Positions 2,967 through 19,312 of a DNA stretch of 23,476 nucleotides are shown here, in pieces. A model generated the notes under the pieces. It was not told the DNA's origin, ran no database searches, and was given only the letters and a program-made list of their open reading frames with translations. Position 1 is the stretch's first letter. Each line of letters begins with the position of its first letter. A program made the position numbers and the translations under genes. Origin of the DNA: a virus; the IMG/VR virus record IMGVR_UViG_3300020172_005183, positions 1-23,476 of that record. One strand, written 5' to 3'.

Positions 2967-3854
2967 TTAGTAAAAGCCACCAATTTCATAACCCATAGCT
3001 ACCTTTTCTTCATCGGTTAGCTTGAACGCGTCAACCAAGTATTGAGAATAGTGTTTTACACCATCAATAATTTGCATCTGGTTAGAAACTCTTCCCGCAG
3101 TAGACAAGACACGCTCTTCTTCCATTCTTGCCCACTCTTCAGGTCCATGTTGTTTTTCACTTGACAACCAGTCCTCAGAGCCTTCATTTTTATATTTCAC
3201 AAAAGACCTAATTAAAAATTTTGTTCCAGATTTAACCATCCCTACAGCGTGGAAGTATGGTTCGTCGCCTGGGTAAATCGGGGAGCCAGATGGGAATACG
3301 ACTATGTCACCTGCTTCGGGTTTGTAATCCAAAGAATCGCCAGTCATTGTTGTGAACCTAACTTCACCCCCTTCATAGTCGTCATTTATGTAAACAGTGC
3401 ATGTCAGGAGAAAATTTTCAAATCGGCTAGCGTGCTGGCTAACAATATAGTCCGTATGGTATTGCATTACCCTACCCCCACCAGTGTCAATACCTTCGTA
3501 GTAAGCAGCAAAGCTGACCCGAGATATGATTGAATCTTCGGGAAGCTGAACATCGTTGGCATCTATATAATGAGAGAAAGCACAGCTAATAGCGTTTTGC
3601 AGTCTTTCCTCCATTGACCTTTCGCAATCGTACATGTCATTAGACATATCTGTTGCTTCCGGATTGAACTGTTTTGGTTCGCAAAGCTGTCCAAAACCGT
3701 ACCAATCCATCCATTTACCAAAATAGTATTTACCTTCAGATGAGCCTAATGACTTCCGAAGTGTTGAATGAATGTGGTTTTTGTCCGGGAGAAGACCCTG
3801 ATAAACAAAAATTTTTGGGTATATTTCTTTATACGAAAGATTAATGTTTATCAT
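2967..3854 (-). CDS. 2OG-Fe(II) oxygenase, prolyl-4-hydroxylase-like (lone minus-strand copy)
   Basis: A 295-residue protein with the double-stranded beta-helix signature of the prolyl-4-hydroxylase-like family. Metal ligands: H133 and D135 (YHTDY) and H202 (YFHAV), with K212 ten residues later at the usual 2OG position. NDDYEGGEVRF (158-167) and AGDIVVFPSG (181-190) are typical core strands of the family. It would use O2 and 2-oxoglutarate to hydroxylate an unidentified substrate. It is the only oxygenase in the window on the minus strand, ends 13 bases from the convergent GPx-like gene, and is divergent from the SGNH-like gene at 3934. No clear Shine-Dalgarno precedes the ATG. The C-terminal 60 residues (WARMEEERV.., TDEEKVAMGYEIGGFY) lie outside the catalytic core and are unrecognised. 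Confidence 0.85.
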   Translation of the reverse strand: MININLSYKEIYPKIFVYQGLLPDKNHIHSTLRKSLGSSEGKYYFGKWMDWYGFGQLCEPKQFNPEATDMSNDMYDCERSMEERLQNAISCAFSHYIDANDVQLPEDSIISRVSFAAYYEGIDTGGGRVMQYHTDYIVSQHASRFENFLLTCTVYINDDYEGGEVRFTTMTGDSLDYKPEAGDIVVFPSGSPIYPGDEPYFHAVGMVKSGTKFLIRSFVKYKNEGSEDWLSSEKQHGPEEWARMEEERVLSTAGRVSNQMQIIDGVKHYSQYLVDAFKLTDEEKVAMGYEIGGFY

Positions 3855-3933
3855 GCCCAGATTGTACCACTGCTATTCTCCGTACATCCTCTTGATTCTT
3901 TTCGATATAACAATTTTGGGCTACTATTCGAAT
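3855..3933. other. Divergent intergenic region, likely to hold promoters for both directions
   Basis: A 79-base gap between the minus-strand oxygenase start (3854) and the preferred plus-strand start at 3934, the only clearly divergent junction in the window. The plus frame is open through it from 3844, but that extension would overlap the minus-strand gene and gives a hydrophobic, compositionally odd N-terminus. On the minus strand TACAAT (complement of 3862-3867) resembles a -10 box, and on the plus strand TATAAC is at 3906-3911. No convincing -35 is correctly spaced for either, so promoter assignment is tentative. Confidence 0.35.
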
Positions 3934-5001
3934 ATGCAGAATGGCAAAAGTGAAAATCAAACTGACCCATTTATTTTTTCATTTGACAAAAACTTAGAAA
4001 ATCCATTCTCAATTATTTATGAAGAATCATTTGAACCGCAAGATAGTGAAAAATGCTACACAGGGGCAAATCTTTGTGGGATTACTAATTTTGATGGTTC
4101 TGCTGCTCCTTGGGGAAGAAGACCAATAGAGAAAAATCCGGAATTTGTGTGCATAGGCTGTTCCTGTACGGTATCTATGGGGCTAATTGAAGAATATTCT
4201 TGGCCATCAATAATTAGAGAATTTACTGGGGCAAAAGTTAATAACTTGTCTTCGCCTGGGTCTGGTATTGATTTTCTATCTTCATTTGCAATTGATTCTT
4301 TTGCTCAATTTGGAAAGCCAAAAACAGTATTTGCACTGTTTCCAGACATATACAGAATGTGGACTGTGAATTCGTGTGAGCATATATCTAATGGTAAAAA
4401 TCACACAATACACGCATCATGGCACACAGATGTTTGCGAGTACTTTATGGATGTTCGTCATTCTGCTATGGCTACAGAAGACAAGCCAGTGACGACAAAA
4501 CCATTTTCATATACTGGTTACGACGGTCGGAAAACTACTATTTCCGTTGATGCTACTATCTTCAATAGCTTTACTACACTTGAAATGTTGATGCATTACT
4601 GCCGCATGAATAACATGGAGTTTAAATTTTGCTCATGGGATGATGAAACAAATAAAATATTTTCCAATATTGGCTACTACGATTCTAATTATCAACCAGC
4701 AAAAGTATTGCATTTTGAAAATGAAAAAATATCAAAAAAACAATTAAAAAATAGTAAAACAAATATGGACCAAATTTGGTGGGAAGAAGAAATAAACATA
4801 AGCGACGTGTACCAGATGCCATGGAGAAGACTAGGTTTTGGCGATGAATGTGAACACTTGCCGCAAACTGAATATCAAAAAAAATGTTGGAGTGTTGCTA
4901 GTGATATTGGCAATCATCCGGGCATTCATGACCAAATACATTTTGCAGAACACTTTCTTGGCATGAAGGTAGACAACGATTTCTTAGGGAAACTACCATG
5001 A
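3934..5001 (+). CDS. SGNH-hydrolase-like protein, copy 1
   Basis: A 355-residue protein from the ATG at 3934; the frame extends to 3844 but would overlap the divergent gene. I read a GDSL/SGNH-type pattern. Block I is CIGCSCTVSMGL (73-84) with Ser77 as the likely nucleophile, then WPSIIREFTG and VNNLSSPGSG (102-111) with the oxyanion-type glycine. Block V-like is HPGIHDQIHFAE (328-339) with D333 and H336 in the DxxH arrangement. SGNH enzymes are esterases, lipases or O-acyltransferases acting on small acyl or sugar esters. It is clearly paralogous to the gene at 5752-6834: same block I and V, VNN, PD.YR.W and YSWPSI. Its stop overlaps the next oxygenase start (ATGA), so the two are probably co-translated. 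The function is inferred from these blocks only. Confidence 0.6.
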   Translation: MQNGKSENQTDPFIFSFDKNLENPFSIIYEESFEPQDSEKCYTGANLCGITNFDGSAAPWGRRPIEKNPEFVCIGCSCTVSMGLIEEYSWPSIIREFTGAKVNNLSSPGSGIDFLSSFAIDSFAQFGKPKTVFALFPDIYRMWTVNSCEHISNGKNHTIHASWHTDVCEYFMDVRHSAMATEDKPVTTKPFSYTGYDGRKTTISVDATIFNSFTTLEMLMHYCRMNNMEFKFCSWDDETNKIFSNIGYYDSNYQPAKVLHFENEKISKKQLKNSKTNMDQIWWEEEINISDVYQMPWRRLGFGDECEHLPQTEYQKKCWSVASDIGNHPGIHDQIHFAEHFLGMKVDNDFLGKLP

Positions 5002-5765
5002 GCAAAAAAAGAATTGAATACGGAACTAGGCCGTCGCAACTTTTCGTAATGGAAAACTTTCTAAACGAAGAAGAACTTTCTGTATTCAATAATTTACTTC
5101 TTGTTGATTCAGATTGGGTAAAGCAGGAAAAATATTACCCAGATGTGAGGCAGCACTATACTCTGAGCAATGAAAAAGGAGAAAACCAGGATTTACTAAG
5201 AATAGATAAGGAAGTCAAAGAGAGAATTCACAAAGAGCTAGAAAAATATTATGCTCAATTACTTTTTGTGCCAATAAATCTTTCGTACAACAGGTGGATG
5301 ATTGGCGATGAAATCAAGTCGCACAACGATAGTGGACATACATCTGGTGAGTTGATAATCGAAGAAAGAGGAAATGAAAATTTTCCAGTTCCGATATCAG
5401 AGCATTTTAATGATTATGCATCAGTTGTTTACCTTACGGACGACTATGAAGGCGGAGAGTTTTTTTTCAACTATCTTGGTTACAAGATTAAGCCATCTGC
5501 TGGTGATGTAATTACTTTTCCAGCAAATCATTTTTATACACATGGAGTAACTCAGCTAGTTTCCGGAGAGCGGTTAACCATGACATTATTTTGGCCCGGG
5601 GTAAGGTCCGTGTGCCTAAGCCTAGTGCCGGAGCTTTATACCGACTGGTGGAAGCGTGTATCCAATCCAGAAAGTATTTGGCGCGTTATGCCTCAAAAGT
5701 ACATTGACTCTGTCGATAAAGCAATGCTTCCAGAAAGAATGTGGTTTGACGATGAAGAAGATTAA
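4998..5765 (+). CDS. 2OG-Fe(II) oxygenase, prolyl-4-hydroxylase-like
   Basis: A 255-residue protein starting inside the stop codon of the SGNH-like gene. Metal ligands are H109 and D111 (KSHNDSG) and H182 (YTHGV), with R192 ten residues on (SGERLTMTLFW) for 2OG binding. YLTDDYEGGEFFF (145-157) and KPSAGDVITFPAN (165-177) are typical core strands. The N-terminus (LFVMENFLNEEELSVFNNLL) matches the usual opening helix of this family. A C-terminal tail of about 55 residues, rich in Trp and acidic residues, follows the core. It is sandwiched between two paralogous SGNH-like genes with overlaps on both sides, suggesting a hydroxyl created here is a substrate for, or is protected by, the acyl-type enzymes (inference). 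Confidence 0.88.
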   Translation: MSKKRIEYGTRPSQLFVMENFLNEEELSVFNNLLLVDSDWVKQEKYYPDVRQHYTLSNEKGENQDLLRIDKEVKERIHKELEKYYAQLLFVPINLSYNRWMIGDEIKSHNDSGHTSGELIIEERGNENFPVPISEHFNDYASVVYLTDDYEGGEFFFNYLGYKIKPSAGDVITFPANHFYTHGVTQLVSGERLTMTLFWPGVRSVCLSLVPELYTDWWKRVSNPESIWRVMPQKYIDSVDKAMLPERMWFDDEED

Positions 5766-6834
5766 ACAACATCTACTTAGCCCTGATGAGCTATACTCGC
5801 TTTCTTTTTATTCAGATAGAGCTTCCGATAGCGGATTTTTTTCAATTTACAATACGGCTGAAAATAATTCACCAAAAAAAATAGAGAAACAAGATAGCAA
5901 TGTTCCTTTTACTGGGGTTACCGATAATGGCCTCGTAGACTTCAGCGGAGAGCAAGCACCATATTCAAGAAATAACTTCATAGAGGACCCTTACTACGCA
6001 TGTATTGGGTGCTCGTATACTGTTTCAAAAGGACTTCCAGTAAATTACTCGTGGCCCTCAATCGTTGAGCTGTTTACTGGTAAAACAGTAAATAATTATT
6101 CTGAGCTAGGTGCTGGTTACAGAAAAATATCTTCATTTACGATGGATGCTTCCGCGCGCTATGGTTCACCAAAACATGTTTTAGCACTAATGCCAGACCC
6201 TTATAGGTTCTGGTTTCCTTACTCATGGATTCGAAATGTAGAAATACATTCTTTCAGCTACGAGGGGGACGTAGAGGACAGTGATAATTCTAGTATTGTT
6301 TTTGGTCAGGCATTTTGGGAAGCAACAGTTCAATCCTATACCCATAATCACATGGCGTCTGGACAGGAGCCCCTAAGGCTCGTTGACCATAAGGGGAGAA
6401 AGCATGTTGTCTCTCCAGAACTTGCTGTTTTTGCGAGCATGTCATCTTTATATTCTCTTAAAAGAATATTTGAATCAATGTCTGTGCCATTTGACTGCAT
6501 GACGTGGTTTCATCCCGATAACCCACTTGCTATTGATTCTCATGACTTATTCAACATAAAGAGGAAACCGCAGTTACGGCTTGAAACATCAACTAGTCAT
6601 TTTCAGAAATTCATAGACATGGAACGAGAGATAGGCGGAGATGGTCGGTGGCGCAGACATGGGGCCCCATCCCGCTTGGAAACTTGTGACCACGTGCCGT
6701 TAACTGAGAATCAAACCAAGTTCTGGTATAAATCAATAAACAGCATGCACCCCGGACTGCACGACCAAATACATTATGCCGAACAGCTTCTTGGAGTAGA
6801 AATACCATGTTCAATACTTGAGGAGATGCCGTAA
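5752..6834 (+). CDS. SGNH-hydrolase-like protein, copy 2
   Basis: A 360-residue protein from the ATG at 5752, overlapping the previous gene by 14 bases; the frame extends to 5656 but that part lies in the oxygenase coding sequence. Block I is CIGCSYTVSKGL (84-95) with Ser88, followed by YSWPSIVELFTG, VNNYSELGAGY (113-123) and LMPDPYRFW (146-154). Block V-like is HPGLHDQIHYAE (333-344) with D338 and H341. It has the same length and order of motifs as the copy at 3934-5001 but is well diverged in the middle, so the duplication is not recent. The expected role is an esterase or O-acyltransferase; the substrate is unknown. Its stop overlaps the start of a small basic ORF (TAATG). Confidence 0.6.
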   Translation: MKKIKQHLLSPDELYSLSFYSDRASDSGFFSIYNTAENNSPKKIEKQDSNVPFTGVTDNGLVDFSGEQAPYSRNNFIEDPYYACIGCSYTVSKGLPVNYSWPSIVELFTGKTVNNYSELGAGYRKISSFTMDASARYGSPKHVLALMPDPYRFWFPYSWIRNVEIHSFSYEGDVEDSDNSSIVFGQAFWEATVQSYTHNHMASGQEPLRLVDHKGRKHVVSPELAVFASMSSLYSLKRIFESMSVPFDCMTWFHPDNPLAIDSHDLFNIKRKPQLRLETSTSHFQKFIDMEREIGGDGRWRRHGAPSRLETCDHVPLTENQTKFWYKSINSMHPGLHDQIHYAEQLLGVEIPCSILEEMP

Positions 6835-6965: not shown

Positions 6966-6972
6966 GGAATGT

Positions 6973-8427
6973 ATGTCATCTAATATTTTATGGGGCATAA
7001 ATGACTCATCGCATGATGCCGCGCTAAGTGTTTTAGTAGACGGTAAAATATGTTTTGCTGCTCATGCGGAACGCTACAACAAGGTGAAGAATTCATTTCA
7101 CATATCTAAAGATTTGATTGATGATGCTATGTCATACGGGCATCCCTCTGCAATTGCCTATTTTGAGAAAAGGTTAAAGAAAAGAATTAGACGCATACTT
7201 TTTGGCGGCATCAATGGTGACTACGGAAATCTTTATACAGATAAATTTCCTGAGTTATCAACTGTCCCTGAACATCAATTCTCACACCACTATTCGCACG
7301 CTGCGGCTGGTTATTATACGTCACAATTTGATGCTGCAACAATTGTCGTAATTGATGCGATTGGGGAGTTTGAGACAGCATCCATTTGGGAGGCACGCGG
7401 AGAGTCAATCAAACGTATTTTTTCCTTAAAATATCCTGTTTCTTTTGGTCTTTTTTATAGTGCATTCACTCACTTGGTAGGGTTGGAGCCGGGCAAGGAA
7501 GAATACATACTGATGGGTATGTCAGCATTTGGGGACCCCCGTAAGTACGGGGAGCGAGTTGGTAGTTACTTCCCATCATTTGCTAATCAACCACATAACT
7601 TGCATCGAGGAGTGCCCAAATGGGGGGAGGTGTTCGACGATGATGACAAGTGTGATATTGCAGCAGCAACACAATCCGTGTATGAAAAAAGACTATTAGA
7701 ATTTATGAGATTTGCTAAAACTATTACATCATCTAATAATCTTGTATTCATGGGAGGGTGCGCCCTGAATTGCAAAGCCAACTCGCTTTTAATGGGTGAA
7801 TGGGGAAAAATCTGGATTATGCCCAATCCTGGAGATGCTGGTTCAAGCCTTGGGGCCGCACTTGCGCTTCATGGTGGACACGTGGAGTGGAATGGTCCGT
7901 ACTTGGGTAAAAACATCTCCCAGACATACCCAGTCGGTGAAATAATTAAAGAACTCCAGAACTCCGGCATTGTTGGAATAGCTTCAGGTAGTGCTGAATT
8001 TGGTCCTCGGGCTCTTGGGAATAGAAGCATCCTTGCAGACCCGCGAAACGCTCTTAATAAAAATATTGTAAATGAAATAAAAAAACGTGAAAAATTCCGT
8101 CCGTTTGCTCCGGTGATTATGGAGGAGTTCTCACATGAATGGTTCGATATGGATGGTTCATCACCGTATATGCAATATGCGGTAAGGTGCAAAAAACCGC
8201 ACCTAATTCCTGCTGTTGTTCATGCTGACGGAACTAGCCGAGTTCAGACCGTAAACAAGGAGCAGCATGCTGGACTGTATGGGGTGCTGGAGCGCTGGCA
8301 CTCCATTACCGGCATTCCCATACTACTTAATACCAGTTTAAATATAAAAAATCAGCCTTTACTTAACGACATGAAAGATGTTGAATTGTGGAGGCGTGAC
8401 AATCCTGACGTATGTCTGCTTACCTGA
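6973..8427 (+). CDS. Carbamoyltransferase, NodU/CmcH family
   Basis: A 484-residue protein with a good Shine-Dalgarno (GAGGA, 6964-6968) before ATG 6973. The N-terminal Kae1-like half has SSHDAALS (12-19), AERYNKVKNS (32-41), SHHYSHAAAGYY (104-115, with the His residues of the family's metal/active site), VVIDAIGE (125-132) and GGCALNCKAN (261-270). The YrdC-like C-terminal half has GSAEFGPRALGNRS (339-352), ADPR and REKFRPFAP (372-380). Family members use carbamoyl phosphate and ATP to form a carbamoyl-adenylate and transfer the carbamoyl group to a hydroxyl on a sugar, antibiotic or nucleoside. It is somewhat shorter than the usual 540-580 residues and stops soon after the GIPILLNTSLN motif. 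It sits between the SGNH/oxygenase group and a run of oxygenases, so an acceptor hydroxyl made by one of them is a reasonable inference. Confidence 0.9.
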   Translation: MSSNILWGINDSSHDAALSVLVDGKICFAAHAERYNKVKNSFHISKDLIDDAMSYGHPSAIAYFEKRLKKRIRRILFGGINGDYGNLYTDKFPELSTVPEHQFSHHYSHAAAGYYTSQFDAATIVVIDAIGEFETASIWEARGESIKRIFSLKYPVSFGLFYSAFTHLVGLEPGKEEYILMGMSAFGDPRKYGERVGSYFPSFANQPHNLHRGVPKWGEVFDDDDKCDIAAATQSVYEKRLLEFMRFAKTITSSNNLVFMGGCALNCKANSLLMGEWGKIWIMPNPGDAGSSLGAALALHGGHVEWNGPYLGKNISQTYPVGEIIKELQNSGIVGIASGSAEFGPRALGNRSILADPRNALNKNIVNEIKKREKFRPFAPVIMEEFSHEWFDMDGSSPYMQYAVRCKKPHLIPAVVHADGTSRVQTVNKEQHAGLYGVLERWHSITGIPILLNTSLNIKNQPLLNDMKDVELWRRDNPDVCLLT

Positions 8428-8472: not shown

Positions 8473-9114
8473 ATGAACAATATTGCTAATGAGCAATCAC
8501 TGGTTAAATCTGGACACTTTGGCTCTAGTTCTGACAATATATTAATAATTGAAAACTTTGTTGAGCAACAAGACTTAGAGACTATTAATAAATTTTTTCC
8601 GCTGATAAATGAGTGGGAGAACGAAAAAGAAGATGAGTTTAACGAAGATGGAATCTGCATATATGATGCCTCGTATTGGCGAGACAGGATGTGTAGTGGG
8701 GAAATACTGAAACGCATTTCCCCGGAAATTTTTAATTTAGTAGATAAATATGTCAACAAGATGGCTACTGCTATTAGTGCGAAGTATGACGTAATGGTTT
8801 CATGCCGACCCCCTGTTCTTATCAGGTGGCTTCCGGGAAACAGTCAGTCTCCGCATGCGGATAAACAGCTGAACGACGGAACCCCAAATCCATTTCCCAC
8901 GTACGACCTTAATTCCGTCATATATTGGAATGAAGCATTTACAGGTGGGCAGATTTATTACCCCCAGCATGACGTAGAGGTGAAGATAAGCTCAGGGATG
9001 GCAGTTGCGCATCCAGGAGATATCAACTATCTTCATGGAGTACGTGAGATAACGTCTGGCGAACGCTGGACAACGCCATCCTTTTATACAATCACTAAAA
9101 TAGGGAGACAATAA
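8473..9114 (+). CDS. 2OG-Fe(II) oxygenase, prolyl-4-hydroxylase-like
   Basis: A 213-residue protein from the first ATG; a TTG at 8437 would add 12 residues without support. A weak AGGG precedes the ATG closely. Metal ligands are H128 and D130 (SPHADKQ) and H188 (YLHGV), with R198 ten residues later (SGERWTTPSFY). IYWNEAFTGGQIYYP (150-164) and ISSGMAVAHPGD (172-183) are the usual core strands. It is close to the minimal size of a single-domain oxygenase of this family. It opens a run of seven genes with overlapping or nearly abutting ends (8473-14797). A 45-base gap separates it from the carbamoyltransferase. The TAA overlaps the next ATG (TAATG). Confidence 0.88.
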   Translation: MNNIANEQSLVKSGHFGSSSDNILIIENFVEQQDLETINKFFPLINEWENEKEDEFNEDGICIYDASYWRDRMCSGEILKRISPEIFNLVDKYVNKMATAISAKYDVMVSCRPPVLIRWLPGNSQSPHADKQLNDGTPNPFPTYDLNSVIYWNEAFTGGQIYYPQHDVEVKISSGMAVAHPGDINYLHGVREITSGERWTTPSFYTITKIGRQ

Positions 9115-9809
9115 TGGAAGTAGCTGGATATATTGGTCATGAAAATGCCGGAATAGTTTTATACAAAAACGTGTGGCCAAGTGATGCCAATTTTGTTGAA
9201 CGTCTTGAGGCAGTTTTAGAGGATAGTCAGCATTCGCGGTATAAGTGGAGCCCTGCAATGGTCGGGGACCAAGAAATTATGAAAGATTACCGTGACTGCT
9301 TTGATTTCAAAATGCGCCAAGGCGAGATGCCAATAGCGGAACCTGGGTTTGAAGAGTTATCATCTGTCTATTTGGAAGTTATGAGTGGTGTACGGGAATG
9401 CATGGAGCACTATTCTGGTTTATACAACTTGAAACTTGGATACGAAGAGGCAACCAACTTCGTTAAGTACGGAGTTGGTCAGCACTTCTCTGTGCATCCA
9501 GATTCTGGTTTTTCCTATAGTTGCGCCGTTTCCAGTATTGGCTACATAGCTGACGGTTATGAAGGTGGAGAGTACTTCATGCCATATCAACAGCTCAAGT
9601 TTTTCCCAGAAAAGGGAGACTTAATCATGCACCCATCTGACTTCATTTATGCACACTCATCAATGCCGGTAACAAAAGGTACAAAGTATTCGGTAGTGAC
9701 CATGTATGACTACAACGACAGAAATCACCAAACTGGTTCGTATGGTTTAAACGTTGTTTCTCAAGCATCCACACTTCCAAATGTTAGTGGTCAGGTAGTA
9801 ACGGCTTAA
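9114..9809 (+). CDS. 2OG-Fe(II) oxygenase, prolyl-4-hydroxylase-like
   Basis: A 231-residue protein whose ATG overlaps the previous TAA. Metal ligands are H128 and D130 (SVHPDSG) and H181 (YAHSSM), with K191 ten residues later (KGTKYSVV). ADGYEGGEYFMPYQ (146-159) and PEKGDLIMHPSD (165-176) fit the core. The 2OG-binding residue is Lys, as in animal and algal prolyl 4-hydroxylases, whereas most oxygenases in this window have Arg. About 30 residues beyond the core (YDYNDRNHQTGSYG..) are Ser/Thr/Val-rich and unassigned. Substrate unknown. The next gene starts at the base after its stop. Confidence 0.87.
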   Translation: MEVAGYIGHENAGIVLYKNVWPSDANFVERLEAVLEDSQHSRYKWSPAMVGDQEIMKDYRDCFDFKMRQGEMPIAEPGFEELSSVYLEVMSGVRECMEHYSGLYNLKLGYEEATNFVKYGVGQHFSVHPDSGFSYSCAVSSIGYIADGYEGGEYFMPYQQLKFFPEKGDLIMHPSDFIYAHSSMPVTKGTKYSVVTMYDYNDRNHQTGSYGLNVVSQASTLPNVSGQVVTA

Positions 9810-12118: not shown

Positions 12119-12911
12119 ACATCTTGGAGGTGGTGTTGTTATTTACCGCAACGCCTTTAACCTCGACTGGGAGTGGATGCGAAATTTTTGTCATTCGACA
12201 TTGCTAGAAGAGCGCAATACCATGTATTCACCTGGCGTAGACCCAATAACTGGTGAAGATGGATACATAAATAAAAGTAATTACTTTTTTAAAAAAGATT
12301 CTATTGAAGTAATGCCGTGGAGAGGTAGCCTCATTCATCAAAACGGCGATACTAAAGTCCAGGAGACGATTGACTATCTGGAGAGGGCTAAGGATGAATG
12401 CCTACAGGACTATTTGCATAAATTTCCACTTGCTGGAAAATGTATTTGGTGGCGCATCCGTGGACACATAGTTGCCTACCCAAAGGGTTCATTTCTCGGA
12501 CTACATGCGGACATTCAGACAGAGTACGAATTTGGGAAGCCTCACCCCAAGGACCAATTAGCAACCAGAAATATTGTGTCCGTTGTTGCTTATATGAACG
12601 ACTGTGTTGATAGCTCAGACGAGCTGGATGGTACAAATTTCACTGGCGGGCTTCATTACTTTAACTACTTAGACATAACCATAAAGCCTCAAAAGGGTTC
12701 AATAATATTTTTTCCGTCAAACTACGTTGCTGCGCATGAGGTGCAACCCGTAACAGATGGAATGAGATACTCGTATTTGGGGTGGTACTGCCAGGGAACA
12801 CCGAATTCAGAAGTTCTAGAAAACGTCGTAGACCCAGTCGCCCAGCCGGAAGCAGCTCGAAAGTCATCAAACGTATATATGCCAACCGGCTATAAGTTAA
12901 CGGAGTCGTAG
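12102..12911 (+). CDS. 2OG-Fe(II) oxygenase (WW-RGH subgroup)
   Basis: A 269-residue protein from the ATG at 12102, overlapping the previous gene by 17 bases; GGGGGAG lies just before the ATG. Metal ligands are H135 and D137 (GLHADIQ) and H212 (AAHEV), with R222 ten residues on (DGMRYSYLGWY). It shares IWWRIRGHIVAYPKG (115-129) and IIFFPSNYVAAHEV (201-214) with the oxygenase at 17383-18357 (IWWKARGHVLKYLPG, VVFFPANYVGSHAV) and, more weakly, with the C-terminal domain of the next gene. These three form a subgroup. The HAD-to-strand loop is longer than in the other copies (EYEFGKPHPKDQ). Substrate unknown. The TAG overlaps the next GTG start (TAGTG). Confidence 0.87.
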   Translation: MSAIGEHLGGGVVIYRNAFNLDWEWMRNFCHSTLLEERNTMYSPGVDPITGEDGYINKSNYFFKKDSIEVMPWRGSLIHQNGDTKVQETIDYLERAKDECLQDYLHKFPLAGKCIWWRIRGHIVAYPKGSFLGLHADIQTEYEFGKPHPKDQLATRNIVSVVAYMNDCVDSSDELDGTNFTGGLHYFNYLDITIKPQKGSIIFFPSNYVAAHEVQPVTDGMRYSYLGWYCQGTPNSEVLENVVDPVAQPEAARKSSNVYMPTGYKLTES

Positions 12912-14107
12912 TGTCAATAAAAGTAGGAATTCTCAATACGGGTAAAATGGGGGCTTCGTTAGCGAGGGCGGCAAAAGATAATGGGTGTGAAGTTTTCTGG
13001 GCATCAGAGGGTCGCTCTACTGAAAGCAAGAGCAGGGCACATGAGCTTGCGCTTCATGATGCTGTAACCATAGAAAATATGTGCTCAGTCTGCGATGTGA
13101 TTATTTCAATATGCATGGGTTCCGGTGTGATGCCAAATGCTTTGAACGTTGTTTCTGGTGGATTTAATGGTACGTATGTTGACGCAAACCACATAGGTGA
13201 TGTTTCTCACGAAAATCACTTAAAAAATATAATCGAAGATGCTGGAATTAGTTACGTAGATGCATCGATATATGGCTGGCCGTACCCTCACGAACAAAAT
13301 CCGGATTCTGAAAGAACTCTTTATCTGTCTGGAGGTAAAGCAAATGACGTTAAATCAATATTTCACGGATATATCTTTGATTGTGAAGTAACGGAAATGT
13401 CTGCAAAAGGGGTCAAACGCCAGAGAGAGATAGCTGACAGAGCAGACTGCGCACCACACATTGACCACGGTTATGGGATAGTTGAGTTCCCTAGAATAAT
13501 GCAAATAGAGGATATCTTTATTGATTCCTACATGCAGCGCAGGGAGATTTCTGAGCCACAGGATTATTACGTTGACGAAGAGGGTTTTTATGTAAACCGT
13601 GGCGGCTATAGGTTTACGAAAGAGCACGTAGATAAAGCACCAAGAAGATATTTGAATTTAACGCCTGATGGATGTCCGCAGGAAGATATTGATTTTCACG
13701 CAAAAATCGAAGCCGAGATATCTAAGTGTATAAACGCCTACAGAGGGATATACCCCGAAGTTTATGACTGCGTCAGATGGAGGACGGATGCTCATATTGC
13801 CGCATATCCATCCGGAGCTGGCATGGGTGTACATCATGATAATTCAATCGGAAGTGCCGGAAAGAGCGAAAATCCAATATTCAATGTTCTTTCGCTATCA
13901 TTAGTGCTAAGCGACAGGTGTGAAGGCGGGGAGTTAGAGATGAAATATATAAATAAAGCATTTAAACCACAAAAAGGCACTGTAATCATTTATCCAGCAA
14001 GTTTTCTTGGTAGCCATGCGGTATCAAAAGTAGAATCTGGACTTAGAATTTCATATCTAGAATTCTTTGGACACGGCACCGTTAGTGGCCAGACTAAGCC
14101 GATTTGA
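12911..14107 (+). CDS. Fusion: NAD(P)-binding Rossmann (beta-hydroxyacid dehydrogenase-type) domain plus 2OG-Fe(II) oxygenase
   Basis: A 398-residue protein with a GTG start inside the previous stop. Residues 3-150 look like the N-terminal domain of 6-phosphogluconate/3-hydroxyisobutyrate dehydrogenases: VGILNTGKMGASLARAA (5-21, with G6, G11, G14), then CDVIISICMGSG (61-72), GTYVDANHIG (87-96) and DASIYGWPYP (117-126). The helical C-terminal domain and catalytic lysine of those enzymes are not visible. Residues 250-398 form an oxygenase core: H308 and D310 (GVHHDNS), H369 (GSHAV) and R379 (SGLRISYLEF). About 100 linker residues lie between. The oxygenase half belongs with the 12102 and 17383 copies. 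It could couple an oxidoreduction to hydroxylation, or the Rossmann part could only bind a ligand. No frameshift is needed: it is one continuous frame. Confidence 0.8.
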   Translation: MSIKVGILNTGKMGASLARAAKDNGCEVFWASEGRSTESKSRAHELALHDAVTIENMCSVCDVIISICMGSGVMPNALNVVSGGFNGTYVDANHIGDVSHENHLKNIIEDAGISYVDASIYGWPYPHEQNPDSERTLYLSGGKANDVKSIFHGYIFDCEVTEMSAKGVKRQREIADRADCAPHIDHGYGIVEFPRIMQIEDIFIDSYMQRREISEPQDYYVDEEGFYVNRGGYRFTKEHVDKAPRRYLNLTPDGCPQEDIDFHAKIEAEISKCINAYRGIYPEVYDCVRWRTDAHIAAYPSGAGMGVHHDNSIGSAGKSENPIFNVLSLSLVLSDRCEGGELEMKYINKAFKPQKGTVIIYPASFLGSHAVSKVESGLRISYLEFFGHGTVSGQTKPI

Positions 14108-14119: not shown

Positions 14120-14797
14120 ATGAAAGTTATAGACGAATTTCTCAGTGACGAAATATGCAATTCAATAGTTAATGACAAATCATTTTTCCCAATGTCCATG
14201 GGGAGCGATGAACGAATTGCTTCAGAAATTAACTCATACCATAGTGAGCAGGCTGACTGCTTTGCTCCGTATATGTTCTGGGATGGTTGGGGTAGGTCTG
14301 AGCCAAAATCACTAAAACAGTTAGTCGTGAAGCATATTTGGGAAAATAACTTGCCGTTTCCAGTTGACGAGCTTTGTGGTTTTGAATATTGGACTAGAAC
14401 ATTTAATCAGCGTCAATTTCTTGGTCCACATGTAGACGAAGATACATTTAGGTACGCAAAGACTAAAATTTTGACAGGTCCGCAGATTGGCTGCGTTTAT
14501 TACGGGCCAGAAACAGATACTGGCAATGGTGGGTTTCTGGAGATATATCCTCACAAAATAGATGACTATACAGAAAACGCTCTTGAATCAAGTCATGTTG
14601 GTGAATTACTCGTTGACATATCAGAGCGCGAACGTATCTCATGTAAGCCCAATAGATTGATAATTTTTGATGCTGGACACGTGCTTCACGGTACAACTCC
14701 AATGATTTCAGGCCAAAGAAATGTAATGATTGTAAATGTTTGGCACCGAGACCTCCCCCCAACAGCGCTTGACACTGGTGATTTTTACTACGAATAG
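14120..14797 (+). CDS. 2OG-Fe(II) oxygenase
   Basis: A 225-residue protein, ATG 12 bases after the previous stop in an AT-rich gap with no obvious Shine-Dalgarno. Metal ligands are H104 and D106 (GPHVDED) and H190 (VLHGT), with R200 ten residues later (SGQRNVMIVNVWH). KPNRLIIFDAGH (176-187) replaces the usual AGDxxxFP strand, and the spacing between HxD and the distal His is longer (84 residues), with a loop GPETDTGNGGFLEIYP (129-144). This is a more distant member than the other single-domain copies. It ends the run of closely packed genes that began at 8473. Confidence 0.85.
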   Translation: MKVIDEFLSDEICNSIVNDKSFFPMSMGSDERIASEINSYHSEQADCFAPYMFWDGWGRSEPKSLKQLVVKHIWENNLPFPVDELCGFEYWTRTFNQRQFLGPHVDEDTFRYAKTKILTGPQIGCVYYGPETDTGNGGFLEIYPHKIDDYTENALESSHVGELLVDISERERISCKPNRLIIFDAGHVLHGTTPMISGQRNVMIVNVWHRDLPPTALDTGDFYYE

Positions 14798-14816: not shown

Positions 14817-14847
14817 TACTGATGTCCGCTTATTGCAATCCGTAACT

Positions 14848-14853
14848 AGGAGA
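14848..14853 (+). promoter_or_regulatory. Ribosome binding site AGGAGA selecting a TTG start
   Basis: AGGAGA lies 5 bases before the TTG at 14859. No ATG or GTG in that frame is equally well placed, so this site decides the start of the 86-residue gene. Confidence 0.6.
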
Positions 14854-14858
14854 ATAAA

Positions 14859-15119
14859 TTGTCTACATTTAATATAAGCAACATAGTTCCAGCGGAATCA
14901 AGAAAAGAAATCCTGCAAAGAGCCTTGGAACAGGCTAGTTCAGAAGTTTTTAGAATCGCATTCGACCTATTGATAGACCCAGATACCGTAACCGAGGGCT
15001 GGAAAGCATCTGATTCTGGAGTCGAAGAAGGCCATTTTCTATGGGGTAGTGCTGTATTGCTTGAGTTTCATCTGAATAGGTATTTTTCAGCGAAGAAACA
15101 ACTAGAAGCTCTTTCCTGA
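14859..15119 (+). CDS. Small unknown protein, 86 residues (related to the next gene)
   Basis: TTG start with a good Shine-Dalgarno. The product is acidic and mostly helical by composition. It contains FDLLIDPDTVTEGWKASDSG, which parallels FELCESLGINPNSVSETWKK in the next protein, followed in both by an acidic D.G.EE stretch and later by LEFHL / LEYHI. I therefore read the two as members of one small family, the second with an added zinc-ribbon-like tail. No membrane segment or signal. Function unknown; it is not recognised as any named family. Confidence 0.65.
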   Translation: MSTFNISNIVPAESRKEILQRALEQASSEVFRIAFDLLIDPDTVTEGWKASDSGVEEGHFLWGSAVLLEFHLNRYFSAKKQLEALS

Positions 15120-15134
15120 GAAAGGGTCTATATC

Positions 15135-15656
15135 ATGATTGATTCACATACAGATATCCCGTCAAAATACGTTCACCCTGAGGTGCGTTTACGGATAGTA
15201 AATAAAGAGATTGTTGAGAGCGCAAAAAGAATTTTTGAGCTATGTGAATCTCTTGGGATTAATCCAAATTCAGTTTCTGAAACATGGAAAAAAGAAGATA
15301 TTGGGATTGAAGAAATTCCTTTTAGTGACGAATTTGGTGATGCAAACATTGCCCTCGCTGGCGAATATGGTGATAAACCGGTATTTCGGATAAATAAAGC
15401 TGCAGCCACCGGCGACGATAAGACGCTGCATCTAAAACCTTTTGCAGAAAGTCTCGAATACCATATAAAAAAACATGCATTAATGCTTATGAAGGCGGAA
15501 AATGTAACTGAAGAGAGTCTCAACAACCCAAGAGATTGGCATTCAGATGGACTCTTCCATTGGTGCCCGAACTGTGACCAGGTCTTTGGGTGCGATACTC
15601 CAAATAAAGACGGAGAAGTTTGCTGTAGTTTTTGTGGAACCTATGGGACATTTTAA
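15135..15656 (+). CDS. Unknown protein, 173 residues, with C-terminal zinc-ribbon-like motif
   Basis: The ATG is preceded by AAAGGG about 10 bases upstream. Residues 25-62 resemble the 86-residue neighbour (L.I.P..V.E.WK..D.G.EE). The end holds two CxxC pairs, C144-P-N-C147 and C164-S-F-C167, 16 residues apart and each in a turn context (HWCPNC, CCSFCG), as in a zinc ribbon. C153 and C163 are extra cysteines. The Zn ribbon suggests nucleic-acid or protein binding but does not identify the partner. It lies in a plus-strand run of small unknown genes between the oxygenase groups. Confidence 0.65.
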   Translation: MIDSHTDIPSKYVHPEVRLRIVNKEIVESAKRIFELCESLGINPNSVSETWKKEDIGIEEIPFSDEFGDANIALAGEYGDKPVFRINKAAATGDDKTLHLKPFAESLEYHIKKHALMLMKAENVTEESLNNPRDWHSDGLFHWCPNCDQVFGCDTPNKDGEVCCSFCGTYGTF

Positions 15657-15671
15657 GAAACGGAACATGAC

Positions 15672-15911
15672 ATGGCACTTTCTTTAGAAAAAACATTATT
15701 GGCACAGGCAGAAGCAAAAAAATACCTTGAGTATTCAAGTTATTCGCTGTGCTTAATGCTCGGGATTAGCCCAGAAAACGCAGAGGAAGATATTGATTCA
15801 GGCGTTATGAACATGACGGAATATGGTTACGATACAAACCATGTGACGCAACTTCAATCTGCAGTTGGTTGTTTAAAAAAACAAATGCAAATCCTGGAGA
15901 ATCTCGGGTAA
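15672..15911 (+). CDS. Small unknown protein, 79 residues
   Basis: ATG 15 bases after the previous stop, with a weak GGA upstream. It is a helical, acidic protein containing LCLMLGISPENAEEDIDSG, which weakly echoes the LGINPNSVSE motif of the preceding gene, and a Leu/Gln-rich C-terminal helix (QLQSAVGCLKKQMQILENL) that could form a coiled coil. The TAA overlaps the next ATG (TAATG). No recognised family. Confidence 0.55.
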   Translation: MALSLEKTLLAQAEAKKYLEYSSYSLCLMLGISPENAEEDIDSGVMNMTEYGYDTNHVTQLQSAVGCLKKQMQILENLG

Positions 15912-16258
15912 TGAAATTATCAACTGAAATAACAGAAATTTTTAGCAGCTCAAAAACTTTTGAAGAACTTGCCCAACATTCCAACAGAAAGATTGTTGTG
16001 TATAACGAGCAGTTGGAGGAGTCAAAGTCAAAAACATCCGTATCACTAGCTGGACAACTGTACTCAGCAGAAAAACAATTAAATAGAGAAAATGATACTA
16101 TTCGCTGGGAAAGTTCAGTTCATTCGTCTGTTTTTTCATCAGACGACTCCGTAGTTAGATGCCCAGTATACGCAGAGTCCAATGATTCAATTAGCAAATG
16201 GAATGCTGAATCTCCTCGTTTTATTGTGATGAATAGTACGGAGGGTATTTCGTTGTGA
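15911..16258 (+). CDS. Unknown protein, 115 residues
   Basis: The ATG at 15911 overlaps the previous stop. The frame is open to 15869, but the coupled start with GGAG 11 bases upstream is preferred. The N-terminal two thirds are helical and polar (TFEELAQHSNRKIVVYNEQLEE, broken into separate helices), rich in Ser and Glu; the end is Ser-rich with a single Cys. No signal peptide or membrane segment. The TGA overlaps the next GTG (GTGA). Function unknown. Confidence 0.5.
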   Translation: MKLSTEITEIFSSSKTFEELAQHSNRKIVVYNEQLEESKSKTSVSLAGQLYSAEKQLNRENDTIRWESSVHSSVFSSDDSVVRCPVYAESNDSISKWNAESPRFIVMNSTEGISL

Positions 16259-16590
16259 CTATTAGACATTCTTGGGAAACACAAAACAATACCTACTCAG
16301 TGGACTCGCACATTGAATACGTCGAGCATCAAATAGCTTCAATTCTTTACATTTCCGGCCTTGATGGGAAATTAATTGAGTCATACGAGATTGAAGAAAT
16401 GCTTTCAGCAGTCAGGGACACCTTTAAGGTGACAAGAGAGTCAATTGTTGTTGACAATATTAAATCTGGTATAAGGCCAGCGTACGAATTTTTTATGACC
16501 AAGAACTCGTCAAAGCTTACTCTTGTTCTTAGGCGTAATATGAGATGGTTAAAAATAGCAAAGTATGCAAAGGGTATACAAAATGTCTAG
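16255..16590 (+). CDS. Unknown protein, 111 residues
   Basis: GTG start overlapping the previous TGA. It is an acidic helical first half (HIEYVEHQIASILYISG, EIEEMLSAVRDTF) with a basic C-terminus (LVLRRNMRWLKIAKYAKG). No motif is recognised. It overlaps the methyltransferase-like gene by 8 bases when that gene starts at 16583, which suggests coupled translation. Confidence 0.5.
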   Translation: MTIRHSWETQNNTYSVDSHIEYVEHQIASILYISGLDGKLIESYEIEEMLSAVRDTFKVTRESIVVDNIKSGIRPAYEFFMTKNSSKLTLVLRRNMRWLKIAKYAKGIQNV

Positions 16591-17353
16591 TGGGTGGGCG
16601 ACGCGAGCAAGAATTGCAAGAAGACTGTCCAGAACTGGACAGGACGAACTCCTACTCTCTGAGTTAGGGGAACTTTCTGATTACGCCTCAAAAATAAAAC
16701 AATTTCATGAAGAATCCTCTGTCGACAGGCGAACAATCGCCATTGGCGCAGACATAGAAAGTCATTGGTATGAGGCAATAATCAACCCAAACGAAGAGTT
16801 TGCTCATCTCATGTGGCAAAACATTGCCCAAATTAAAATGTGGTACGACCTTCTCTTAAGCGGTGGGACTGAACAAGACCCAAAGACTGTTCTTACCTAT
16901 ATGCAGCTTCCTTGTAATTTTATTATGGAGCTAATTTCTGATAGAACAAAAGAATTTACATTCGTTAATAACTTAGACCTTTTTTATTTTGAAAATTTTT
17001 ATCTCACAGAAAATGTTTTAGATACGCATCCTGATATTAGATATTCAGCTGTAGATAATGTTGACATTATTTCAAAGCAAACAGAAAAACAGTATGACAT
17101 GGTTAGGGCAACGGGATTTGGTATCCATGGCATCTCTACCGAAATGCTTGCCGGATTAATGGACTCTGTCAAAATAGGGGGCTCATTCATACTCTCCGAC
17201 GCGTCAGACTACGGAATGCTTTACACTGGGGCTGATGCTGAAATAACTTCTACTTTTTGGGATTATGGCAAATACATATGCCAGCGTGAGGATTTTATTT
17301 CCTATCACCTCCCATATGATGTAGGCTTGGTCGTAGCAAAAAGAATTGCTTAA
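16583..17353 (+). CDS. Methyltransferase-like Rossmann protein, degenerate motif I
   Basis: A 256-residue protein from the ATG at 16583, with AAGGG 10 bases upstream; an ATG 18 bases earlier is also possible. The second half follows the end of a class I SAM-dependent methyltransferase fold: a strand/acidic stretch NVDIISKQ (159-166), EKQYDMVRATG (168-178), a helix EMLAGLMDSV, then KIGGSFILSDASDYG (197-211, the usual GG-x-hydrophobic strand), and a final pair of strands ending DVGLVVAKR. The glycine-rich motif I is not visible; FVNNLDLFYFENFY occupies roughly that position. It may be a divergent methyltransferase or an inactive relative. A basic N-terminal helix (RARIARRLSR) and a linker precede the domain. 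Confidence 0.5.
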   Translation: MSSGWATRARIARRLSRTGQDELLLSELGELSDYASKIKQFHEESSVDRRTIAIGADIESHWYEAIINPNEEFAHLMWQNIAQIKMWYDLLLSGGTEQDPKTVLTYMQLPCNFIMELISDRTKEFTFVNNLDLFYFENFYLTENVLDTHPDIRYSAVDNVDIISKQTEKQYDMVRATGFGIHGISTEMLAGLMDSVKIGGSFILSDASDYGMLYTGADAEITSTFWDYGKYICQREDFISYHLPYDVGLVVAKRIA

Positions 17354-17382
17354 CCCAATACACAAAAGACTAGAGGTATGTC

Positions 17383-18357
17383 GTGGAAGCGACGCGCAAA
17401 CACCTAGAAATACCAAAGCTTGGCTCTACCGGATGCAGTGAAGTCAATGCTATTCAGTACATAAATCACGGCAGTGGAATAATGCAGTTCAAAAATGTTC
17501 TGGATATTCCGCAGGACAAAATACTTCCATATGTTGACTCATATGCGTACGTACCGAGCTGTGGATTGGAGATTTACGAGGAAGACGGTATTAAGAAGGC
17601 TAGGGATTTCGAGGGAAATGAGCAGCCGTATTCAAATCTGCTCTCACTTCCTTTACGACTTGGCGGTTTTGGCATGCCTGGACCGGTCGAGGATTATACC
17701 GAATCGGATGTAGTTGAGTTTTTTAATAACTGCGAAAGAGCTCTATACCTTTGCCTGATGAGATACATTGACATTCACCCAATGATTCTTAACACGATTT
17801 GGTGGAAGGCAAGAGGCCACGTACTCAAGTACCTTCCCGGTGCTTCACTTGGCATGCACAATGATAACGACACGAACTTTAGGGTGATTGACGGGCAAAG
17901 GTACCTATCGCAGCGCGAAGTTGCTATGTACCAGGTAGTCAATGCGATTATCTATTTTAATGATTCATATGATGGTGGTGAATTTAGATTCCCATATGCC
18001 AATGTAACTATTAAGCCAGATGCTGGAGATGTGGTCTTTTTCCCTGCAAACTATGTCGGCTCGCATGCTGTTGCCCCAATTACCAGTGGAGAAAGGTATA
18101 CATATCTTGCTCAGTTTGGGCATGGTGTTGCAAAGAACGACGAAATACGCGAAGCACAAGAAAGTGTTGATTGGTTGCCTCCCGTGTATTTGCCTTTTAT
18201 TTATCAAGATGCAGTAAAGTTTTCGGAATCTGGATTCTCCCATTACGACGATTCAGCGGAAGTTGCTCTTGGTTTGCACAATAACAGCGTTATCTCTCAA
18301 CAAAGGTCTGTAGAGGGAGCTCCAGAGGGGACGAAGCTAGAATATGAAGAGAGTTAA
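17383..18357 (+). CDS. 2OG-Fe(II) oxygenase (WW-RGH subgroup)
   Basis: A 324-residue protein with a GTG start; AGAGG lies 6 bases upstream, and the ATG at 17378 is out of frame. Metal ligands are H159 and D161 (GMHNDND) and H228 (GSHAV), with R238 ten residues later (SGERYTYLAQFGHG). FNDSYDGGEFRFP (192-204) and KPDAGDVVFFPAN (211-223) are the core strands. It shares IWWKARGHVLKYLPG (139-153) with the oxygenase at 12102 and more weakly with the fusion at 12911, although it lies 3.3 kb beyond them. It has an extra N-terminal region (1-100) and a tail of about 75 residues (VDWLPPVYLP..) outside the core. It overlaps the next gene by 14 bases. Confidence 0.88.
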   Translation: MEATRKHLEIPKLGSTGCSEVNAIQYINHGSGIMQFKNVLDIPQDKILPYVDSYAYVPSCGLEIYEEDGIKKARDFEGNEQPYSNLLSLPLRLGGFGMPGPVEDYTESDVVEFFNNCERALYLCLMRYIDIHPMILNTIWWKARGHVLKYLPGASLGMHNDNDTNFRVIDGQRYLSQREVAMYQVVNAIIYFNDSYDGGEFRFPYANVTIKPDAGDVVFFPANYVGSHAVAPITSGERYTYLAQFGHGVAKNDEIREAQESVDWLPPVYLPFIYQDAVKFSESGFSHYDDSAEVALGLHNNSVISQQRSVEGAPEGTKLEYEES

Positions 18358-19312
18358 ATCTGCTGAACAATATGTTTTTGATTTTAAAGGAATCGAAGAC
18401 ATAAGAAACAACTTTAGTGCTTATGCGGATGCATTCAAAACCCATGGGATTATTTGTTTCCGTGGCGCATTCCTTGACATATACAAGGGCACAGAGGTCC
18501 TTGCTGCTGTGTCAAAGGGCCTTAATTGGACTCCTGTATACAAGAGTCAGGACGGGAAGGTAGCAGATTGGAGGTATACGCAAAATTACGACGATAGGGC
18601 AAATACTTTTGTTACGTCAGAAGTGCAGCAAGGATTAATAAACCCATGGCATCTTGAGGGAATGTACAAGAAGCACACAATGCACGCAGTCGGATGGAGT
18701 ATGCGAAATTTCAAATGCGATAGCTCTGTCGGGCAAACCGGATTTATTGATGCATCCGAACTTGTTTCTATTATGCCTGCAGACATGTACGCATTTATGA
18801 AAAAAGCAAAGCTTATACATTACCCAATATTTGCACGCAAGGTACCAGAACCTTACCAGCCAATGCTCGACCATTTTGCGGCAGAGATGGATGCCATGCA
18901 TGAAAAAATTTGGTCAGTTGATGGCGATACGGAAATGTCAAGCAATGCGCATGATGCAATACAAAATCACCCAACTTTTGGGTATGAGGTTCTTAGATTG
19001 TGTCCATGTTGCGAGCGATGGGGAAATCAGCATCTGCTATTTTCCGTCGATGGGCAAAAACCGACAGAAAAAGATAATCAATTTTTTAAAACAATACAGG
19101 ATTGGCTGAAAGAAATTATCACTGACGAGTCCTTAGCTTGGTACCATGAATATCAAGAAGGTGATTTTGTAATCCCTGATTTATTTATAATGATTCACTC
19201 CGCAAAAGGAGGGTTTGCTCCTGGGGAACGGGAATTTGATGGAATGTGGTGTTTCCAAAAAAAGGTAGACTACGATGAAAATAAAGCCATACCAATAAGG
19301 CAGGAAAAATAA
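18344..19312 (+). CDS. TauD / clavaminate-synthase-like 2OG-Fe(II) dioxygenase with HxE
   Basis: A 322-residue protein. The family layout is visible: THGIICFRGAF (33-43), NPWHLEG (100-106) with H103 and E105, FKCDSSVGQTGFID (123-136), EGDFVIPDLFIMIHS (272-286) with H285, and R296 eleven residues later. Glu in place of Asp is known in clavaminate synthase, AsnO and VioC, so the triad can still be functional. Those relatives hydroxylate free or carrier-bound amino acids. Unusual here is LRLCPCCERWGNQH (217-230), a CxCC cluster in the position of the HPxTG loop of TauD relatives. It starts inside the preceding oxygenase. Confidence 0.75.
   Translation: MKRVKSAEQYVFDFKGIEDIRNNFSAYADAFKTHGIICFRGAFLDIYKGTEVLAAVSKGLNWTPVYKSQDGKVADWRYTQNYDDRANTFVTSEVQQGLINPWHLEGMYKKHTMHAVGWSMRNFKCDSSVGQTGFIDASELVSIMPADMYAFMKKAKLIHYPIFARKVPEPYQPMLDHFAAEMDAMHEKIWSVDGDTEMSSNAHDAIQNHPTFGYEVLRLCPCCERWGNQHLLFSVDGQKPTEKDNQFFKTIQDWLKEIITDESLAWYHEYQEGDFVIPDLFIMIHSAKGGFAPGEREFDGMWCFQKKVDYDENKAIPIRQEK

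Follow-up and report, generated by a model that had tools for sequence, protein, structure and literature searches.

Gene content of the oxygenase island

The window, meaning the whole stretch of DNA analysed, is the complete IMG/VR record IMGVR_UViG_3300020172_005183 (23,476 bases) from an uncultured phage. Since this record is a fragment, the true number of oxygenases may be higher than that given here. Apart from OXY1, every feature described below lies on the plus strand. The first gene, which runs off the left edge of the record, encodes a fibre or structural protein (1–1602; phrog_697 structural protein, E 7e-47). It is followed at 1614–2066 by a protein with a PASTA-like N-terminal domain (20.2 bits, under the cut-off; the relative L063 reaches 28.3 bits) and a C-terminal array of 15 x-F-P-P units, x being F, H or Y. 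This protein, our proposed substrate, adjoins the island directly upstream. Next comes a glutathione-peroxidase/thioredoxin-fold protein (2069–2953; PF00255, 9e-7, above cut-off), with homologues in related islands. Fibre genes flank the island on both sides.

An earlier note on this DNA had claimed ten 2OG-Fe(II) oxygenases, eight of them prolyl-hydroxylase-like and two TauD-like. ORF calling places ten ORFs where that note had put them; position 8473 is an internal ATG of OXY3, whose ORF opens at a TTG, 8437. Profile matches and intact sites bear out all ten, as well as the division into eight PF13640 and two PF02668 proteins. Six of the eight P4H-like proteins score above the curated PF13640 cut-off of 27 bits, at 32–47 bits: OXY1 (2967–3854, minus strand; 38.6 bits), OXY2 (4998–5765; 33.5 bits), OXY4 (9114–9809; 32.2 bits), OXY5 (12102–12911; 46.9 bits), OXY6 (12911–14107; 36.4 bits) and OXY8 (17383–18357; 43.3 bits). 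OXY3 (8473–9114; 19.8 bits) and the divergent OXY7 (14120–14797; 25.4 bits) fall slightly under it. We accept both as PF13640-type because their relatives match the profile (9/11 for OXY3, best E 9e-10; 6/6 for OXY7, best 1.7e-6) and because the OXY3 profile matches prolyl 3-hydroxylase 1 (7e-11). TauD1 (10532–12118; 4e-26) and TauD2 (18344–19312; 4.6e-16) match PF02668 directly.

The active-site pattern that had been described, HxD or HxE with a distal His and a basic residue at +10 or +11, is present in all ten proteins. The P4H-like enzymes carry the HxD...H triad and a basic residue at H+10 in 8/8 cases (in OXY1, H133xD, H202 and K+10), while TauD1 and TauD2 have Arg at +11 of the distal His. 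In alignments, H128, D130, H188 and R198 of OXY3 are invariant, as are the iron triad and basic residue of OXY4, OXY5/8 and OXY7. The HxE motif of TauD2 is retained in most of its relatives and thus does not reflect decay. We conclude that the ten oxygenases are real and their sites intact; 2OG-dependent hydroxylation is the predicted activity.

What do these enzymes resemble? The OXY4 profile matches the bacterial prolyl 4-hydroxylases 3itq and 5hv0 (9e-7), and the best PDB match of OXY2 is prolyl 3-hydroxylase 1 (E 7.9e-6). The closest solved relatives of OXY3, OXY4 and OXY2 are clearly peptidyl-prolyl hydroxylases. OXY5/8 match prolyl hydroxylases weakly, another hydroxylase being slightly ahead, and OXY7 gave no match among solved structures. 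OXY6 is an NAD(P)-binding Rossmann domain (PF03446/PF02826 matches sub-threshold) fused to a P4H-like oxygenase; the two domains are separate genes in loci L131 and L337. The AlphaFold model of TauD1 matches AtsK/TauD structures (about 1e-15), and the order of elements in its C-terminal domain is thioredoxin-like.

Between the oxygenases lie several accessory genes. Putative SGNH-type protein 1 (3844–5001) has no Pfam or PDB match, and its GCSxT and HDQIH motifs are invariant among relatives; putative SGNH-type protein 2 (5734–6834) is its paralogue (32% identity). The earlier note had also spoken of transferases. This holds for a NodU-type carbamoyltransferase (6973–8427; PF16861 2e-50, PF02543 1e-30; phrog_1601) but not for 16565–17353, a putative methyltransferase-like protein assigned by eye and kept in the closest relatives, for which Pfam, PHROG and PDB searches gave no support. 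The DUF6065 protein (9810–10535; PF19541, 2.6e-39) forms a core with OXY3 and OXY4. We claim no fold for it: the AlphaFold model has a pLDDT of 61, and its best PDB matches are dUTPases at E 4e-3 and TM <0.4 (query length). Bacterial homologues above cut-off occur in 24/398 Pseudomonadota genomes, amid ordinary neighbours with no oxygenases nearby; none was found in 50,697 phage records. Promoter and terminator scans did no better than on shuffles, and no tRNA or Rfam family was found.

Conservation of the island in related phages

Is this gene order peculiar to one record? A search of other viral contigs, which the earlier note had advised, finds OXY3–OXY4–DUF6065 in dozens of uncultured phages, usually with TauD1–OXY5–OXY6. 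Gene order is kept in relatives at 45–87% identity, 29/29 related records hold 5–9 PF13640 genes, and the number of oxygenases per locus ranges from five to eleven. Nearly every island has the array, OXY3 and OXY4. OXY2 has one close relative only in our sample. The same neighbourhood is thus kept in related phages, in agreement with the view that these are not scattered single acquisitions. A tree of the oxygenase copies rejects recent local duplication, which had been raised as a possibility. OXY5, OXY6 and OXY8 are paralogues related to one another; most copies are old paralogues that have persisted as distinct orthologous groups. The island could be read, as first suggested, as a multi-step hydroxylation pathway.

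The terminase of one relative is 37% identical to that of Moorella phage MTATph1. In a check for T4-like origin the gp23 profile matched nowhere, the positive controls being equally silent. We take the island phages to be large tailed phages from aquatic habitats, of a lineage not previously described.

Linkage between the x-F-P-P array and oxygenases

The repeat protein lies outside the region covered by the earlier note, which overlooked it. Its array is conserved at the protein level. Among arrays, x is F, Y, H or W in 99.1% of 1,927 units, and all four proline codons are used. The unit is x-F-P-P and not Gly-X-Y, so the array is not collagen-like. Arrays sit on differing N-terminal domains (PASTA, fn3 or no recognised domain). 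Of the loci that include this region, the vast majority have the array next to the island.

If islands come with arrays, do arrays come with oxygenases? In the reverse test we scanned for the x-F-P-P repeat alone and then counted oxygenases in the loci found. At least one oxygenase was present in 83/118 array loci and at least three in 49/118 (3.10 per 10 kb), against 10/120 and 1, respectively, for a collagen-repeat (Gly-Pro-X) control (0.13 per 10 kb). Loci of fn3 fibres with an array hold oxygenases in 16/18 cases (5.1 per 10 kb); those without hold them in 14/102 (0.42 per 10 kb), 12-fold fewer. With redundancy removed, at least three oxygenases remain in 23/55 array loci versus 2/75 (p=1.4e-8); representatives were used here, DNA single-linkage clustering having been dropped when shared repeats merged nearly everything. 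Six array-negative controls have three or more oxygenases; in five of them an irregular FFPP/FFP array lies a short way upstream of the first of these genes. Where a regular array of at least 8 units is followed by at least 4 kb of downstream sequence, oxygenases occur in 28/30 loci, and 294/325 oxygenase ORFs are co-directional with the array. Two long arrays (L128 and L176) and some shorter or irregular ones (L164 and others) have no oxygenase in the sequence covered.

The array is thus statistically tied to oxygenases, and strongly so. This tie points to a protein substrate, although it could stem in part from common descent of fibre locus and cassette. TauD1 tracks His-rich arrays (28/35 versus 1/36). 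We do not claim TauD1 as the histidine hydroxylase, there being two well-supported independent contrasts only and all-His arrays without TauD1 in L168 and L189.

Proposed substrate of the island and comparison with known systems

Because the block is conserved and lies nearly always just downstream of the repeat protein, its likeliest role is heavy chemical alteration of this surface protein. We propose, at roughly even odds (about 0.5), that the island hydroxylates and decorates the x-F-P-P repeat protein. In this scheme the repeat protein, which ends in tandem (aromatic)-Phe-Pro-Pro tetrapeptides, would be fibre-associated and probably located at the virion tail-fibre tip. Before virion assembly the P4H-like oxygenases, above all OXY3 and OXY4 as the best conserved of the set, would hydroxylate the array prolines with O2, Fe(II) and 2-oxoglutarate; Phe, Tyr and His may be hydroxylated too. 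The TauD enzymes, NAD-linked OXY6, the carbamoyltransferase and the SGNH-type proteins might then oxidise or cap some of the hydroxyls, and the modified array could provide a rigid, sticky or host-specific tip. Against the array as substrate, at least eight enzymes look excessive for a single four-residue repeat, and some arrays come with no oxygenase. Where the substrate of a TauD enzyme is known, it is usually a small molecule.

Might the genes instead form a cluster that tailors a small molecule or surface polysaccharide, the repeat protein being merely a neighbour at a shared fibre locus? Tailoring commonly involves enzymes of the kinds present here (a NodU-type carbamoyltransferase, the TauD-type pair, a Rossmann domain), a comparable cyanophage set is described by Iyer et al. 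2021 (PMC7824862), and cyanophage S-SCSM1 has oxygenases, carbamoyltransferases and glycosyltransferases together. S-SCSM1, with 24 oxygenases and no x-F-P-P array, shows that oxygenase clusters can serve other ends. Yet none of the genes in the window was recognised as coding for a glycosyltransferase, sugar epimerase, halogenase or synthetase. The carbamoyltransferase is limited to the closest relatives (8/35 His-rich and 0/36 other array loci), whereas the array, OXY3 and OXY4 are almost always present, and the scarcity of oxygenases at array-free fn3 fibre loci also argues against mere proximity; we regard such tailoring as unlikely. That the oxygenases act on different proteins of virion or host (fibre g01, the fn3 protein g27, host receptors), with the array structural, is less plausible still. 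The island does lie between fibre genes, superfamily enzymes modify many proteins and some arrays lack oxygenases, but linkage to the array exceeds linkage to fibres generally, and the array is dense in prolines while OXY3 and OXY4 resemble prolyl hydroxylases.

We give very little credence to DNA-base hypermodification by TET/JBP-like oxidation and O-carbamoylation. Phage 5hmC carbamoyltransferases are known (PMC8670742) and there are weak TET_JBP matches (OXY2 at 6.7e-5, under the curated cut-off), but no oxygenase exceeds the cut-off of that profile (PF12851; best 22.6 bits versus 34.9), and PF13640 outscores it for OXY2, OXY6 and OXY8. Such carbamoyltransferases are usually partnered by a thymidylate-synthase homologue (thymidylate synthase/dCMP hydroxymethylase); none was found in the window, itself a fragment, and the carbamoyltransferase, though of the same PF16861/PF02543 type, is not conserved among islands. 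Equally improbable is a set of metabolic genes, unlinked to one another, that would draw down 2-oxoglutarate in the host with no dedicated substrate, as put forward for cyanophages by Sullivan et al. 2010 (PMC3037559); this predicts neither conserved order, co-direction nor linkage to a proline-repeat protein.

How does the island compare with published systems? The earlier note knew of no described system of this make-up; that is overstated, since phages with several oxygenases have been published, though with the genes scattered and not in this order. Cyanomyoviruses carry 1–5 2OG-Fe(II) oxygenases each (Sullivan et al. 2010, PMC3037559), and S-SCSM1 has its 24 scattered over 228 kb (PMC9602691). 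These T4-like cyanophages share with the island many divergent PF13640-type genes, some near fibre genes, and carbamoyltransferases; they are a different lineage, going by the terminase match of the island relative to the Moorella phage. The clusters of Iyer et al. 2021, for which tailoring was proposed, likewise unite carbamoyltransferases and several 2OG oxygenases, but they include a halogenase, and in the island, with no halogenase or sugar enzymes recognised, the constant partner is a repeat protein.

Fold family and active site are common to the island, the B. anthracis P4H (3itq, 5hv0), collagen prolyl 3-hydroxylase 1 and mimivirus collagen hydroxylation, and in peptidyl prolyl hydroxylase systems too a proline-rich repeat protein adjoins the enzymes. 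The island differs in its repeat (x-F-P-P rather than Gly-X-Y), in having five to eleven oxygenases per locus rather than one, and in belonging to phages of prokaryotes; its activity is a predicted one. It is a tentative and somewhat doubtful further step that widespread uncultured phages use these dedicated enzymes to build a multi-hydroxylated, capped (aromatic)-Phe-Pro-Pro fibre-tip repeat, comparable with hydroxyproline- or DOPA-rich adhesive proteins and the first such system in phages of prokaryotes. The tight tie to a single simple repeat protein offers a concrete, testable substrate. If our reading is right, dense protein hydroxylation would give phages a means of adjusting how they adhere or which hosts they infect. 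The island would also be a ready source of sequence-specific peptide hydroxylases for a simple repeat substrate.

Bacterial genomes, too, were scanned for the array. Three of 398 Pseudomonadota genomes matched; two of the matches are non-aromatic by their codons, and the third is G030, an assembly that also contains an island contig (L337).

Ten oxygenases in a conserved neighbourhood

All ten ORFs that the earlier note had claimed as 2OG-Fe(II) oxygenases were found as described, and in all ten proteins the HxD/E and the distal His are present together with a basic residue, which lies at +10 in the P4H-like and +11 in the TauD-like enzymes. In a Pfam profile search eight (six of them above the curated cut-off) matched PF13640: OXY1 (2967-3854, minus strand) and, on the plus strand, OXY2 (4998-5765), OXY3 (8473-9114), OXY4 (9114-9809), OXY5 (12102-12911), OXY6 (12911-14107), OXY7 (14120-14797) and OXY8 (17383-18357). 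Searching the IMG/VR record itself, a viral fragment of 23.5 kb, likewise gave six PF13640 matches. OXY3 and OXY7 fall below the cut-off; the matches of their relatives confirm both, as do their iron- and 2OG-binding residues, which are invariant. The closest match is prolyl 3-hydroxylase 1 for OXY2 (7.9e-6) and for the OXY3 profile (7e-11, followed by bacterial prolyl 4-hydroxylases), and bacterial prolyl 4-hydroxylases for the OXY4 profile (9e-7). Matches of the window to TET/JBP were all under the family cut-off.

The remaining two, TauD1 (10532-12118) and TauD2 (18344-19312), matched PF02668. The predicted model of TauD1 has the TauD fold; by eye, the predicted element order of its C-terminal region (residues 325-431), E-H-E-H-E-E-H, resembles a thioredoxin fold. 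TauD2 has HxE in place of HxD, and since the Glu is retained in most relatives, its sequence suggests a functional variant site.

Is the arrangement conserved? Megablast found no near relative of the window among 50,697 phage records, and we compared related contigs with it gene by gene. L008 and L009 have all ten oxygenases in unchanged order (57-85% identity), L007 keeps most, and L010-L014 and L019 keep parts of the block wherever the contig covers it. In the more distant L020-L025, L035 and L066, OXY3-OXY4-DUF6065 is retained, TauD1-OXY5-NAD/OXY6-OXY8 comes next in most of them, and edge genes are exchanged; a second group (L042, L045, L057) has OXY3-OXY4-DUF6065-OXY7, plus OXY8 and OXY5 duplicated. 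Every one of 29 related records tested has 5-9 PF13640 matches, and 20 have TauD. The 210-kb record G014 has eight PF13640 genes, most of them within a single segment of roughly 10 kb (159-170 kb). L131 and L337 encode the NAD-binding half of OXY6 and its oxygenase half in separate, adjacent genes; the window's OXY6 is therefore two island genes fused into one.

In a FastTree tree of 107 domains, with moderate deep-node support, seven of the eight P4H-like enzymes group with orthologues from several other loci before any other window enzyme, and OXY2 has a single sister only. OXY5, OXY6 and OXY8 form an older paralogous set. The tree argues against recent tandem duplication as the chief origin of the copies. 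Together with gene order it bears out the conserved neighbourhood that the earlier note had set as a test of its proposal. We conclude that the phage island is real and conserved.

DUF6065 (9810-10535), a constant core member, was present in about 6% of the Pseudomonadota genomes sampled, with no oxygenases close by; one Anaerolineae copy (L339) is, by eye, preceded by PqqD-like and HprK-like genes. Five small unassigned genes (14859-16590) separate OXY7 from the methyltransferase-like gene. Among them, 14859-15119 and 15135-15656 are paralogues of each other, and the C-terminus of the latter is rich in Cys and resembles a zinc ribbon. L337 and L338, contigs assigned to Gammaproteobacteria and Verrucomicrobiales MAGs, also have this island with its array and probably represent phage DNA. 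In G030, the assembly from which L337 comes as contig 74, array matches are nevertheless listed at C3:71678.

The x-F-P-P repeat protein and its linkage to oxygenases

Directly upstream of the island, and downstream of a fibre-type gene (phrog_697), lies a gene (1614-2066) for a 150-aa protein with a PASTA-like domain followed by fifteen x-F-P-P units. An array protein stands upstream of the oxygenases in nearly all related loci covering that region, despite a differing N-terminus: L063 has PASTA there and L131 has three fn3 domains, and no domain was recognised in L020 or L071. The 163 distinct arrays comprise 1,927 units, and in 99.1% of these x is an aromatic residue (F, Y, H or W), while Pro codons vary freely; it is therefore the protein pattern, not the DNA, that is maintained.

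Do arrays predict oxygenases? To keep the test non-circular, viral contigs were scanned for array DNA alone, a pattern with zero chance matches in shuffled window sequences. Some of the loci behind the P4H-like profile come from these same phages, and counts are among matches listed, not random samples. At least one P4H-like oxygenase occurred in 83 of 118 new array loci, at least three in 49 and at least five in 33 (3.10 per 10 kb); L137, an array locus, has eleven. Among (Gly-Pro-X)5 control loci listed, 10 of 120 had oxygenases, a single one of them three (0.13 per 10 kb).‌ The G+C of control loci is somewhat above that of array loci. A closer control was the fn3 fibre motif, also found in array proteins: among matches listed, oxygenases occurred in 14 of 102 fn3 loci without an array (0.42 per 10 kb) and in 16 of 18 with one (5.1 per 10 kb). 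Six 'array-negative' fn3 loci had three or more oxygenases, and in five of these an irregular FFPP/FFP array lies immediately upstream. With redundancy removed, at least three oxygenases were present in 23 of 55 array loci versus 2 of 75 control loci among matches listed (p=1.4e-8). Given at least eight regular units and at least 4 kb available downstream, 28 of 30 loci had oxygenases, 26 of them three or more.

Where array loci have oxygenases, the array's strand carries 294 of the 325 oxygenase ORFs; a downstream oxygenase on that strand is present in 76 of the 83 loci. OXY3 and OXY4 were each found in 67 of 71 array loci.

A possible substrate

What might the enzymes act upon? The fibre-gene setting suggests, as does the linkage of arrays to fn3 and PASTA domains, that the array protein is part of the virion surface. 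The prolines of its array would be hydroxylated by the island enzymes, and the aromatic side chains there perhaps also; in some lineages the hydroxyls may then be processed further by NAD-linked oxidation, O-carbamoylation and SGNH-type enzymes. The NodU-type carbamoyltransferase (6973-8427) and the methyltransferase-like gene (16565-17353) accompany only His-rich arrays, and most of the loci concerned are closely related to the window; both genes are therefore accessory.

Arrays without oxygenases in the available DNA were seen in L128, L164 and L176 and in the fn3 fibre proteins of L100, L102, L114 and L124; often such an array is short or lies inside an fn3 fibre protein. Either the enzymes are located elsewhere or these arrays function unmodified. 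Arrays are His-rich or Tyr/Phe-rich by lineage (L020-L040 versus L042-L090). TauD1 follows His-rich arrays, but lineage confounds this and L168 and L189 contradict it.

Relation to known systems

Cyanophages carry 1-5 2OG oxygenases per genome, with a proposed role in nitrogen metabolism (PMC3037559), and S-SCSM1 has 24, whose functions its authors describe as not specifically investigated (PMC9602691). For a cyanophage cluster containing carbamoyltransferases plus several 2OG enzymes, Iyer et al. proposed a role related to a metabolite or to the capsule (PMC7824862). On examining the S-SCSM1 genome we found its annotated oxygenases scattered, unlike those of the window, and no x-F-P-P array. 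The open literature yielded nothing on phage prolyl hydroxylation in such an arrangement, many subscription journals being outside its scope. The earlier note knew of no described system of this make-up; the oxygenase count has precedents, and what is new, as far as searchable, is the organisation with an aromatic-Phe-Pro-Pro repeat protein. The island is apparently undescribed.

Three 'ferrochelatase' genes of S-SCSM1 (L334:2203-2787, L335:25972-26529 and L336:16908-18269) match the P4H-like profile strongly (7e-16, 2e-13 and 3e-20), and window oxygenases match phrog_3531, labelled 'ferrochelatase' in PHROG, and phrog_274 and phrog_2297, labelled 'DNA endonuclease (V)'. Because of these matches, the labels look like misannotated 2OG oxygenases.
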